A stretch of DNA of 64,000 nt, from contig NZ_QCYM01000001.1 in assembly GCF_003075075.1 (NCBI RefSeq), positions 248,001-312,000 on the forward strand, written 5' to 3'. Of the stretch, positions 32,507-36,913 are shown piece by piece. The notes under the pieces were generated by a model. That model ran no database searches, had not been told where the DNA came from, and worked only from the letters and a program-made list of their open reading frames with translations. This stretch comes from Labrenzia sp. 011. GTDB taxonomy: Bacteria > Pseudomonadota > Alphaproteobacteria > Rhizobiales > Stappiaceae. The translations under genes and the position numbers were made by a program. How positions within the stretch are numbered: the stretch's first letter is position 1; each line of letters begins with the position of its first letter.

Positions 32507-32710
32507 TTGTTTGTCTTCATTAAGATCCTGCCAGCTCAAATACAGAAGTTGAAACATGTGGTTGGTGATGTTTGTCCGCGAGTGAAATACTTGTGTGAGT
32601 GCCAAGAAAGTAGGCATAATGAATTCGCGAAAAACATAGTCAAAATTAGCAAGATAGAATTAACCTCTGCGCGAAATCATGTGCCCGGTTCGTATTTGCA
32701 GGGTAATTTT

Positions 32711-35700
32711 ATGATGATGCGGTCGGTTGTCGCTGGAACCGTTTTTGGCGTTGCGGGAATACTTTCCGGAACGGTTCAGGCGTCCGAAGCGGTGGAGACC
32801 GTGACCGGTCATGAAAAGCTCGACATGGTCTGGGTGCTGTTCGCCGCAGGACTGGTCTTGCTGATGCAGGTCGGCTTCATGCTGCTGGAGGCCGGTCTTG
32901 TCCGCTCCAAGAACTCGATCAACGTTGCCCAGAAAAACCTGCTCGACCTGGCGGTCTCCGTCCTGATCTTCGCCGGTTTCGGTTTTGCCTTCGCCTTCGG
33001 AGCGGGAGGCAACGGCTTCGTCGGCTTTGATACCCACCTTCTCGGGCTTTCGGATCTCGATCCCTGGGAGCTTACCGTCTTTGCCTTTCAGGTCATGTTT
33101 TGCGGAACGGCGGCGACCATCATTTCCGGTGCTGTTGCCGAACGCATGCGCCTGTCGGCCTATGTCTGGTGCTCAGTTCTGACCGCAGGCCTGATTTACC
33201 CTGTCTTTGCCCATTGGGCATGGGGGACTGCCCTTTATGCCGACGCAACGGCAGTTCTGGGCAATGCCGGTTTCGTGGATTTTGCCGGGTCAACCGTGGT
33301 GCATGGCACCGGCGCCTGGATTGCCCTCGCCGCCTGCGCATTGCTCGGGCCAAGGATCGGCCGGTTCGGCAAGGACGGCAAGCCGTTCCGAATCCAGGGG
33401 CACAGCGCGGTGCTGGCGACCTCCGGTGCATTGATCCTGTTTGTCGGCTGGCTGGGGTTCAATGGCGGTTCGACGCTCGCCGCATCCTGGGACGTGCCGG
33501 CAATCCTGACCAATACGGTGCTCGCCGCTGCGGCGGGGACAGCGGTCGGCTATTTTCTCGGTCGCTGCAAAGACAAGTATATTCTGCCTGAAAACTCCAT
33601 CTCCGGGCTGCTGGGCGGCCTCGTGGCCGTCACCGCCGGGTGCCACATCCTGACGCCGGCCGGTGCCATGATCGTCGGCGGGCTTGGCGGCACTGTCGCA
33701 ATCCTCGGTGCCGTCTTTGTGGAGCGCATCCTGAAGATCGACGATCCAGTCGGCGCCATCAGCGTTCACGGATTTTCCGGCGTCGTGGGCACGCTGGCCC
33801 TGTCTCTTCTGGCTCCTGTGGAGCTTTTGCCGCTTGGCGCGAGGGGCGCGCAATTCGCCGTTCAGCTCGGTGGTGTGGTTGCCTGTTTTGCCTGGTGTTT
33901 CGGCGGCGGATGGCTTCTTCTGTCGCTTCTCAACCGCCTGCAGCCCATGCGGCTGGATGCCGTGAGTGAAGACCTGGGCCTCAATGAAGCCGAACACGGA
34001 ACCCGCCTCGGGATCGGTCATGTGGAAGACGCGCTCGACCGGCTGATTGCCGGCAAGGCGGATCTTTCCATGCGCCTCGATGTTTCCAGGGGGGACGACT
34101 CGGAGCGGCTGACACGCCTGTTCAATGCGCTCATGGACACGGTCCAGAATGAGGAACAGGCGCAGAACCGCGTGGCGGACGCCAAGCGGACCCGTGAGGA
34201 GGCGGAGCGGCTGTCTGCTCTTGCAAACGCTACCTTCGACGCCATCGTGATCTCTGTCGACGGGCGCATCCTGGATGGCAACAAGACCTTCGAGGATCTC
34301 ATCGGATACGGCATGGACGAGCTGGAAATGCGCGGCCTCTACGAATTCGTGGACAATGAGCTGGCCGGCACCCTGGAAGAGCATCTGGTCCGGGCCGAGA
34401 AGGAGCCGAGGGAAGTGACCCTGATCAACCGGAGCGGTGAGCATGTTCCTGTTGAAATCCGCACGCGGGTCATCTCCTACCGCGGGATCCCGACGCGGGT
34501 GTCCGCGCTTGTGGACCTGCGTGAGCGCAAGAAGGTCGAGGCGCAGATCCTGCATCTGGCCCAGCACGACCCGCTCACCGACCTGCCCAACCGGGTCGTT
34601 TTCAATGCGGAGATGAGGCAGGTGATCGGCAAATGCGCACGGAGCGGCCATACGGCCGCGCTTCTGCTTGTTGATCTGGACAAGTTCAAGGATATCAACG
34701 ACCTGCATGGTCACCCGGTGGGCGACACCGTCATCCGCATCACCGCGGATCGCCTGAGAAAATACAGCCGCAGTTGCGATACCGTTTCCCGCCTGGGCGG
34801 CGATGAATTTGCCATCATCCAGAACAGTATTCAGTTCATCAATCAGGCCGAAGACATGGCCATGCGGCTGGTTCGGGCCCTGTCTGAACCGATCGACTGC
34901 GGCCAGGGGCTCGTTCTCAAGCCAACAGCCAGCATCGGCGTATCGTTGATGAGGGGCGGAGACGACCCGGATCAGGTCATCTCGAACACCGATATTGCCC
35001 TTTACAACGCAAAGAACCGGGGCCGCAACACCTACTGCCTGTTCCAGTCCGGGATGGGGGACGAGGTGCGCCAGCGCCGGGCTCTGGAAAAGGATCTGAC
35101 CGCAGCGCTTTCGGGAGACGAATTCGAGCTGTATTTCCAGCCGCGCATGAATCTTTCCACCTGCAGGATCGACAGCTACGAGGCGCTGATCCGCTGGCAT
35201 CATCCCGAGCGGGGCCTGATCAGTCCGGCCGAGTTCATTCCGGTTGCGGAAGCATCCGGCCAGATCATTTCGATCGGCAAATACGTCCTGTCCGAGGCCC
35301 TGCGTATGGCCTCCACGGCCATCACCGCGTCGAATATCAGTCTGAATGTCAGTCCGGTTCAATTCCGCGACAGGGACTTCGTTGACGACGTTCAGCGGGT
35401 CATCGAGAATTCCGGTGTGCCGCCGGAACGGATCGAACTCGAAATCACCGAAAATACCCTGATCGAAGACGACGCCCGGGCGCTTTCCATTCTCACGCGG
35501 CTCAAGAAAATCGGCGTGAAGATCGCGCTGGATGACTTCGGCGTCGGCTATTCCTCGCTCAGCTATCTGAGCCGGTTTCCTTTCGACTGCATCAAGATCG
35601 ACCGTTCCTTCGTGAGCGAGGCCCGGGGCAATTACGGATCTCTCGCGATCATCGAAACCGTGGTGCGTCTCGGCAAGGCACTCAACATGCGTGTCGTCGC

Positions 35701-35905
35701 CGAGGGCGTGGAAGACACGGAAAAGCTGCTGCTTCTGGCGCAGCATGGCTGTCATGAGGTGCAGGGCTTCCTGATCGGCAGGCCTGCCCCGGTGGACCGG
35801 CTCCTGCGGCAGGTTCCGGCCGAGGTTCAGGAGGCTCTGGACATTCAGAAATTCACTGGTGTGTCGAATTTCGAGCCGGCCACACCCAAGAATCTGGCGA
35901 GCTGA
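32711..35905 (+). CDS. Ammonium transporter fused to PAS-GGDEF-EAL (ammonium-linked c-di-GMP protein)
   Basis: A single 1064-residue protein. Residues 1-25 are a signal-like segment. Residues 36-412 form a complete Amt/Rh channel with about eleven helices; the gate phenylalanines (F126, F130), W171, the twin histidines H198 (GSTVVHGTGAW) and H353 (ISVHGFSGVVG), and the FNGGS motif are all kept. A linker with a coiled-coil look (420-500) leads to a PAS domain (500-605), a GGDEF domain (696-700, with I-site RSCD at 687-690) and an EAL domain (E824-A-L, EITEN, DDFGVGYSSL, KID, AEGVED). Both catalytic sites look intact. No glnK/glnB gene is nearby, unlike normal amtB operons. The ATG at 32711 follows AGGG; the frame upstream is AT-rich and not protein-like. 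Confidence 0.95.
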   Translation: MMMRSVVAGTVFGVAGILSGTVQASEAVETVTGHEKLDMVWVLFAAGLVLLMQVGFMLLEAGLVRSKNSINVAQKNLLDLAVSVLIFAGFGFAFAFGAGGNGFVGFDTHLLGLSDLDPWELTVFAFQVMFCGTAATIISGAVAERMRLSAYVWCSVLTAGLIYPVFAHWAWGTALYADATAVLGNAGFVDFAGSTVVHGTGAWIALAACALLGPRIGRFGKDGKPFRIQGHSAVLATSGALILFVGWLGFNGGSTLAASWDVPAILTNTVLAAAAGTAVGYFLGRCKDKYILPENSISGLLGGLVAVTAGCHILTPAGAMIVGGLGGTVAILGAVFVERILKIDDPVGAISVHGFSGVVGTLALSLLAPVELLPLGARGAQFAVQLGGVVACFAWCFGGGWLLLSLLNRLQPMRLDAVSEDLGLNEAEHGTRLGIGHVEDALDRLIAGKADLSMRLDVSRGDDSERLTRLFNALMDTVQNEEQAQNRVADAKRTREEAERLSALANATFDAIVISVDGRILDGNKTFEDLIGYGMDELEMRGLYEFVDNELAGTLEEHLVRAEKEPREVTLINRSGEHVPVEIRTRVISYRGIPTRVSALVDLRERKKVEAQILHLAQHDPLTDLPNRVVFNAEMRQVIGKCARSGHTAALLLVDLDKFKDINDLHGHPVGDTVIRITADRLRKYSRSCDTVSRLGGDEFAIIQNSIQFINQAEDMAMRLVRALSEPIDCGQGLVLKPTASIGVSLMRGGDDPDQVISNTDIALYNAKNRGRNTYCLFQSGMGDEVRQRRALEKDLTAALSGDEFELYFQPRMNLSTCRIDSYEALIRWHHPERGLISPAEFIPVAEASGQIISIGKYVLSEALRMASTAITASNISLNVSPVQFRDRDFVDDVQRVIENSGVPPERIELEITENTLIEDDARALSILTRLKKIGVKIALDDFGVGYSSLSYLSRFPFDCIKIDRSFVSEARGNYGSLAIIETVVRLGKALNMRVVAEGVEDTEKLLLLAQHGCHEVQGFLIGRPAPVDRLLRQVPAEVQEALDIQKFTGVSNFEPATPKNLAS

Positions 35906-35974: not shown

Positions 35975-36913
35975 TCAGTTCACCTGGGTTTCCGGCAGGG
36001 GGATCAGCATGGTCCGCCCCAGCACGTCCGCCGGATCCTGAATTTCGGGCACCTGATTGCAGTCCGTGGCGTCAATCCGTTCTTCCGAACCGGTTTCCTT
36101 CAGATTCGCGCAAATCGGAATGGCCGCCTGGCGGGTCCCCTTCACGGCCTCGGCGATGACATCCTGCATCGACCCGTCAGTCGCCTGCAGGGCCAGCGCC
36201 AGATGTTTGGCGAAGAGCGAGATGGTCCTGTCGGCGGAGTAATTGGCCACCTGGCCGGAGCCGGAGGACGACACGAGGGCCTCGGGCCGTCCCTTGAGGT
36301 CGACCGAATGGCCGTCCAGAAGATGCAGATTGACCGCGTGAGAGTTGTTCGTGTCGAGAATGAGTATGACTTCAGCCGCCGGAATCGTATGGATCATCGC
36401 GGCAAAGGCAGAGGTGGAGATCCAGGTTCCCTCGCTGATCGCCTGACCGGCCGTTTCCGGTCTCTGGCCGGACCAGAGTTCAAGGACATAACCGGACTGA
36501 TCCGTCGCCGGATCCGTATCGTCCTTGCCGAGCGGAACATTGGCGTAAATGATCAGCCGGTCGGAGGGGCCGAGCCGGCTTGCAAGCTCGGTGGCCTTGC
36601 GCTTGAGAGCGGCGGCGCTCGCACCTTCGTTGATGAGCTGATGGGTATTGTCGGGACCCGCATCGACCCTGGGTGCCAGGGATGTCACGACCTTTTCGAG
36701 ACTGTGCTTGCAGACCTCCAGGGATTGCGGATTCCACGGGGGGCAATTGCCGATGCCGAGTATGTGATTTTCCAGGTCCGCTGTTCCCTCGGCCCGCGAA
36801 GAGGAGGGCCAGAGAGCAAGGACAATCAGCAGCCCTGCGGCGTGCAGGGTCCGCAGCAGCTGTGCGTGCCGGCGCGCAAATCCTTTGCGGTTCCGTTGCG
36901 CGTTTCCGCTCAT
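35975..36913 (-). CDS. Secreted caspase-fold-like protein without catalytic residues
   Basis: A 312-residue protein with an N-terminal basic and hydrophobic export segment (about 20-40). The central part resembles the p20 core of C14 caspase-like proteins: DRLIIYANVPLG (118-129) sits where YFSGHG-type His motifs are, EVILILDTNNSHA (181-193) where DACHSG-type Cys motifs are, and EALVSSSGSGQVANY and ISLFAKHLALALQ follow in the usual order. Both His and Cys are replaced, so proteolysis is unlikely. The assignment rests on pattern order, not on a search. It is convergent with the Amt fusion gene. Confidence 0.6.
   Translation of the reverse strand: MSGNAQRNRKGFARRHAQLLRTLHAAGLLIVLALWPSSSRAEGTADLENHILGIGNCPPWNPQSLEVCKHSLEKVVTSLAPRVDAGPDNTHQLINEGASAAALKRKATELASRLGPSDRLIIYANVPLGKDDTDPATDQSGYVLELWSGQRPETAGQAISEGTWISTSAFAAMIHTIPAAEVILILDTNNSHAVNLHLLDGHSVDLKGRPEALVSSSGSGQVANYSADRTISLFAKHLALALQATDGSMQDVIAEAVKGTRQAAIPICANLKETGSEERIDATDCNQVPEIQDPADVLGRTMLIPLPETQVN

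Follow-up and report, generated by a model that had tools for sequence, protein, structure and literature searches.

The window examined here is a stretch of 64,000 nucleotides (64 kb) from Labrenzia sp. 011 (contig NZ_QCYM01000001.1), and the gene in question lies at 32711-35905 on its forward strand. A first-pass annotation had described it as a single uninterrupted frame with a complete Amt domain, a PAS domain and the two c-di-GMP domains GGDEF and EAL. Translation and Pfam searches bear out this layout: the frame comprises 1064 amino acids (aa) and a stop, and a complete Amt domain (E 1.5e-101) stands in the same chain as a C-terminal signalling output, with matches to PAS_9 (8.6e-9), GGDEF (2.4e-41) and EAL (2.4e-69). 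The features are collected in Table 1. AGGG stands 7 nucleotides 5' of the ATG at 32711. The list of open reading frames extends the identical frame to an upstream TTG at 32507, but the ATG is favoured as the start because the 20 nearest listed relatives are 1027-1080 aa long.

Table 1. Coordinates of the gene and its parts in the window
Feature	Position	Strand	Basis
Whole gene, Amt-(HAMP-like)-PAS-GGDEF-EAL, 1064 aa	32711..35905	+	Translation, Pfam
Probable signal peptide or N-terminal lead, residues 1-25	32711..32785	+	Inferred from sequence; model confidence (predicted local distance difference test, pLDDT) about 50
Amt domain, residues 40-431	32828..34003	+	Pfam
Receptor-type ammonium site, codons Q53, E60, N76, D79, T136, S139 within span	32867..33127	+	Ks-Amt5 alignment, PMC5764959 ligand list, conservation
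GLNxxEHG helix and HAMP-like helix-connector-helix linker, residues 423-502	33977..34216	+	Alignments, structure model
PAS domain, residues 510-603	34238..34519	+	Pfam PF13426
GGDEF domain, residues 617-773, including I-site and GGDEF motif	34559..35029	+	Pfam PF00990
EAL domain, residues 794-1025, full catalytic set	35090..35785	+	Pfam PF00563

The fused Amt-PAS-GGDEF-EAL chain is neither rare nor an artefact. A full-length search found 3247 proteins; each of the 120 listed is labelled Amt, GGDEF and EAL, and most are labelled PAS too. Their identity to the window protein is 52-100%, one of them (P0002) being that protein itself, and the nearest named relative, from Roseibium marinum, is 90% identical. 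Conservation of this combination in 120 listed relatives at 52% identity or more lies far beyond what chance would be expected to give. At least 35 of the 81 genomes sampled from the family hold an Amt in a frame of 1000 aa or more (judged by frame length). Of the 34 other than the window's, 17 were tested by tblastn, and all 17 gave a match of about 3 kb that confirms the chain. Among 398 genomes drawn from the phylum, at least seven, the window's included, match over nearly the whole length; this is a lower bound, as two candidates were scored per genome and chains with extra PAS domains match in pieces. Such longer chains exist (L092-L097). The idea of an ordinary transporter with a non-functional tail, or of an assembly join, can scarcely be credited: sources mostly call the named relatives 'ammonium transporter', but the full-length chain is present in the 120 listed relatives with both halves conserved, and it is found at unrelated loci outside the genus.

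The Amt half and its ammonium site

The window protein keeps the twin histidines H198/H353, the gate phenylalanines F130/F250 and the pore tryptophan W171, all five of which had been noted in the first-pass annotation and taken as a sign that ammonium can enter the pore. The observation holds, and the use made of it does not. Equivalents of these residues occur in 34 of 34 plain Amts and in 85 of 85 fused ones, the non-translocating sensor Ks-Amt5 among them, and therefore they do not separate sensor from transporter; as evidence of ammonium entry or sensing they were dropped.

A more informative comparison is provided by the intramembrane site of Ks-Amt5. Pfluger et al. 2018 (PMC5764959) describe a high-affinity ammonium site formed by Q24, E31, N47, D50, T51, T109 and T112, in a protein that they report to bind ammonium without translocating it efficiently. 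Aligned to it, the window protein reads Q53, E60, N76, D79, L80, T136 and S139, so that, as far as residues go, six of the seven ligand positions are kept, one of them as T to S. Six positions (without T51/L80) were then compared across 129 Amts. The signature Q-E-N-D-T followed by S, T or A is found in 84 of the 85 output-fused Amts (26 GGDEF-EAL, 9 GGDEF, 16 kinase, 29 chemotaxis, 3 PP2C and 2 cyclase, with Ks-Amt5 and Sd-Amt1 counted among them) and in none of the 34 plain Amts, 12 of which, including the amtB of the window genome, read A-E-N-L-S-S. The sole fused Amt without the signature is that of L095, a GGDEF-EAL chain that reads Q-E-N-N-A-S; in this sensor two EAL catalytic positions are altered as well.

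Other lines of comparison give the same picture. The nearest solved folds are entitled 'Sensor Amt Protein' (6eu6) and 'Receptor Sd-Amt1' (8qj3, 8qj4). Among the nearest Amt-domain relatives (120 listed, in a range of 242-770 aa), 81 carry output labels, namely GGDEF, HisKA/HATPase, MCPsignal, SpoIIE PP2C or class III cyclase, some with HAMP, and 39 carry none. The window genome (5.1 Mb, 65 contigs) has two Amts: the fused one and, on a different contig, a plain amtB immediately preceded by glnK. By tblastn, glnK was found beside five of the five plain amtB loci tested, and it was found neither in the window, where the first-pass annotation had seen none adjoining the gene, nor in 17 loci around the fused gene. 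Judged by its residues, the Amt half is of receptor type, unlike an ordinary transporter, and the earlier preference for a sensor over a bulk transporter is upheld by the site residues, the lack of a detected glnK, the solved folds and the signalling outputs of most of the nearest Amt relatives. The signature would serve as a simple rule to tell receptor-type Amts from transporters, both of which are mostly named 'ammonium transporter' by the sources.

Linker, enzymatic half and proposed mechanism

The Amt domain is followed by GLNxxEHG and then by the pattern G..DLs.RL.v..GDE...L...FN..m, which in alignments recurs with variation across sensors of differing outputs. The structure model, a monomer, places helices at 417-431, 436-446 and 463-502, with a connector after the second and the last running into PAS. 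Of 12 homologous linkers, seven of them picked because they were already labelled HAMP, eight gave a HAMP match in Pfam (best E 4.4e-9), as did 4 of 14 whole chains scanned. By homology, the linker of the window protein may be described as HAMP-like.

In the cytosolic half, residue alignment agrees with the earlier statement that the catalytic motifs are intact: the GGDEF motif (696-700), the I-site (R687-x-x-D690) and all EAL catalytic positions are present. In an alignment of 121 rows, which counts the window protein twice (P0001, P0002), the GGDEF motif, the metal and substrate positions and the EAL catalytic positions are conserved in 119-121 rows, while K658 varies. The I-site is not a family trait, because its R is kept in 81 of the 121 rows and its D in 102; in chains from elsewhere the R is kept in 22 of 30. 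These 30 further GGDEF-EAL sensors, of which one (L033) belongs to the same clade and from which six long chains without GGDEF/EAL were left out, have intact GGDEF positions in 30 of 30 cases and intact EAL positions in 28; of the two exceptions, L138 runs off its contig and L095 is degenerate. Both enzyme domains look usable, which fits the earlier prediction of a c-di-GMP (cyclic di-GMP) enzyme, although which activity dominates cannot be read from the sequence.

We consider it likely that the window protein is an ammonium receptor, in which binding within the membrane shifts the net synthesis of c-di-GMP against its breakdown through the linker and PAS. The Amt domain would capture external NH4+, which would then sit in the intramembrane site formed by helices 1, 2 and 4 (Q53, E60, N76, D79, T136, S139). 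Occupancy of the site would move the C-terminal helix, and the shift would pass through the HAMP-like helical pair to PAS and on to the GGDEF-EAL pair, where altered pairing of the GGDEF domains would change the net rate of synthesis versus breakdown. Cyclase activity may rise on binding, the only hint being that the Sd-Amt1 structures are named ON and OFF; in the other state EAL would lower c-di-GMP. The sequence itself shows the domains, the site residues, the intact active sites and the conserved linker. Binding at the site and its coupling to an output are taken by analogy from characterised relatives. We infer that this chain responds to ammonium and that the trigger is binding, not flux; the first-pass annotation had left the choice between occupancy and flux, and flux is the weaker option, since Ks-Amt5, according to PMC5764959, binds without efficient translocation.

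Several points weigh against the receptor reading. The Ks-Amt5 ligand T51 corresponds to L80, and the window protein's own linker gives no significant HAMP match in Pfam. The Amt rows compared were picked from search hits and are not a random sample. The signature is present in 10 of 10 shorter rows (411-527 aa) taken from the 39 of 120 relatives without an output label, many of which come from short contigs or are partial; some of the 10 are partial and some are apparently genuine stand-alone Amts. The signature is therefore independent of fusion and does not prove that an Amt acts as a receptor. Furthermore, the Ks-Amt5 plug residues F27, Y30 and F34 correspond to F56, L59 and L63, only the first being kept, so that conduction by the window Amt is possible. 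With every pore residue present and the plugs only partly so, the protein might be a transceptor, transporter and sensor in one, which conducts ammonium and signals through flux. We regard this as unlikely: the window genome has amtB, accompanied by glnK, as a distinct gene, the receptor-type site is invariant in relatives, and Ks-Amt5, with the same pore residues, does not translocate efficiently according to PMC5764959.

The GGDEF domain, too, could be a GTP-binding regulator of EAL and not a working cyclase. The same receptor would then control a phosphodiesterase, with EAL as the true output and one-sided chemistry. In NCBIfam the C-terminal half is matched best by the phosphodiesterase DibA, at 409 of 980 bits and far under the cut-off, and a study cited in the comparative-genomics paper PMC9756655 is said there to find that hybrids mostly keep both activities or EAL only. 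Against this stand the GGDEF motif, metal and substrate positions, kept almost throughout the 121 rows and in all 30 further chains, the single clear degeneration found, which sits in an EAL (L095), and the solved relative Sd-Amt1, which has GGDEF and no room for EAL. The phosphodiesterase reading is thus somewhat improbable, and an ammonium receptor that acts on both synthesis and breakdown is preferred.

Bacteria are generally thought to read their nitrogen supply internally, through glutamine, 2-oxoglutarate and PII proteins. A direct receptor for external ammonium that sets c-di-GMP would, if true, let a nutrient act on attachment and motility from outside, before any of it is taken up.

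Outputs of the receptor-type Amt and surroundings of the gene

The receptor-type Amts form a widespread group that has come to be recognised only lately, and this one type is joined to many outputs. In the window's family, Amt together with MCPsignal (Pfam) is found at L006, L008, L009, L017 and L021; these receptor-type chains are probable ammonium chemoreceptors, and a search of the open-licence literature aimed at Amt-chemotaxis chains turned up no study of them. Three genomes with such loci (G052, G059, G076) also hold an Amt in a frame of more than 1000 aa. The chain at L006:1390-4062 ends in PilZ (E 1.1e-7), a known c-di-GMP binding family, and might be where ammonium chemotaxis and c-di-GMP come together; its genome also seems to hold a GGDEF-EAL sensor.

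A pattern-based scan of species genomes returned at least 80 loci in cyanobacteria, Chloroflexi, planctomycetes, spirochaetes, Nitrospirae and proteobacteria including SAR11, as well as one verrucomicrobial and one desulfobacterial genus. The signature is present in 79 of the 80 listed loci, and the remaining one is unaligned at those columns. Nine tails were scanned: PP2C in L112 (a cyanobacterium) and L142 (SAR11), and kinases in L120, L124, L146 and L153, while L125 carries Hpt together with HATPase, L184 a class III cyclase and L133 PAS alone. The cyclase domain, of the adenylate/guanylate type, lies at L184:4204-5046. In SAR11, L142 and 22 loci between L140 and L191 carry receptor-type Amts; most tails are 294-296 aa long, three loci run off their contigs, and the sole tail scanned, that of L142, is a SpoIIE-type phosphatase. 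In Colwellia (L182:3989-8876) a stand-alone receptor-type Amt of 430 aa precedes a hybrid histidine kinase by 47 bp; the output can therefore be a separate gene, and the pair is possibly a split version of the fused sensors. Other combinations with Amt domains had been observed earlier, as PMC5764959 and PMC10433425 state.

This diversity also bears on reverse control, in which c-di-GMP or nucleotides on the cytosolic half would gate ammonium uptake through the Amt pore. The I-site of the window chain would suit such control. However, 40 of 121 rows lack the I-site arginine while catalytic residues are kept, and the occurrence of one Amt type with kinases, chemotaxis domains, phosphatases and cyclases alike is easier to understand if the Amt is the input. 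We therefore hold reverse control to be very unlikely and retain the receptor reading.

For the history of the fusions, a reduced tree was built from 95 of the 129 Amt rows, after 10 short, 19 low-scoring plain and 5 long-branch rows (including Ks-Amt5) had been dropped. The GGDEF-EAL label needs six changes on it, at least four of them forced by well-supported branches. A single origin of all GGDEF-EAL fusions, a group named after the first tree had been seen, was rejected by the approximately unbiased (AU) test (p 8.9e-5). The GGDEF-EAL output was probably acquired on several occasions, or lost and then regained. In the reduced tree the 12 plain Amts that are left form one side of a branch at 100/100; the full 129-row tree draws a split between all fused and all plain Amts, which is not claimed because its support is 28.

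Taken together, we tentatively propose, with less than even confidence, that the receptor-type Amt (Q-E-N-D-T-[STA]) is a general plug-in ammonium receptor of many phyla, repeatedly joined to almost all the main kinds of signalling output and to GGDEF-EAL more than once. In the window protein ammonium, instead of turning a single activity up or down, would flip a bifunctional enzyme between making and destroying c-di-GMP, a trimeric membrane receptor driving a dimeric enzyme via the HAMP-like linker. The signature yields predictions for many organisms at once, including SAR11, a cyanobacterium (Amt-PP2C) and relatives of the window's genus (Amt-chemoreceptor).

Around the sensor gene lie genes for biosynthesis, redox reactions or transport, assigned by Pfam except for an old yellow enzyme-like and a TetR-like gene, which were recognised by eye. 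A search of 17 loci for eight of the neighbours brought out no conserved partner: seven loci, all of the same genus, had one or more of them, and the other 10, which comprise four loci of the same genus and all six from other genera, had none. The gene at 35975-36913 on the reverse strand encodes 312 aa, secreted-looking by eye and without a Pfam match, and has a homologue convergent to the sensor gene in 6 of the 17 loci, all of the same genus. A scan for the -24/-12 elements of a nitrogen (sigma-54) promoter found none upstream of the sensor gene, but it was uninformative, the control glnK of the same genome also being negative; sigma-70 and terminator scans gave nothing useful.

Comparison with known systems

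Among the closest known systems is Sd-Amt1 of Shewanella denitrificans (PDB 8qj3, OFF; 8qj4, ON; 8qpf), an Amt receptor fold with 40.9% identity over 389 aligned residues. Like the window protein, it has the site residues Q-E-N-D-T-S and a cytosolic GGDEF domain, and its PDB title calls it a receptor. Unlike the window protein, it is 644-661 residues long and, with its GGDEF at 462-629, too short to hold an EAL as well; in the tree its Amt falls among a different set of sensors (on a long branch, its place being unsure). Pfluger et al. reportedly described in 2024 a HAMP link and a two-ammonium site in Sd-Amt1. Ks-Amt5 (Kuenenia stuttgartiensis, PDB 6eu6) differs in having a histidine kinase output; its ligand T51 and its plugs Y30/F34 are absent from the window protein, and it has neither HAMP nor PAS according to PMC5764959.

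The cytosolic half resembles the GGDEF-EAL hybrids PA0575 (5m3c) and MorA (4rnh), at 38% identity, and PA0861 (5xgb, PAS-GGDEF-EAL), at 27%; unlike the window protein, these structures have no link to Amt. The assimilatory transporter AmtB with GlnK shares the Amt fold, twin histidines, gate and pore tryptophan, whereas the plain AmtB type lacks the receptor-site signature (34 examined), has glnK beside it (5 tested) and has no output domain.

The first-pass annotation was right on the object and broadly right on its use, but relied on non-diagnostic residues and overestimated the newness. The receptor site, the HAMP-like linker and the diversity of outputs joined to the same Amt type had escaped it. 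Its claim to novelty stands in part: no study of an Amt-GGDEF-EAL chain was found in the open-licence papers searched, which is weak evidence of absence, but Sd-Amt1, with Amt, GGDEF and ON/OFF structures, was already known. Since the Sd-Amt1 chain has GGDEF, an ammonium receptor with c-di-GMP output is known in kind, and the window protein is a variant of this kind that adds PAS and EAL.
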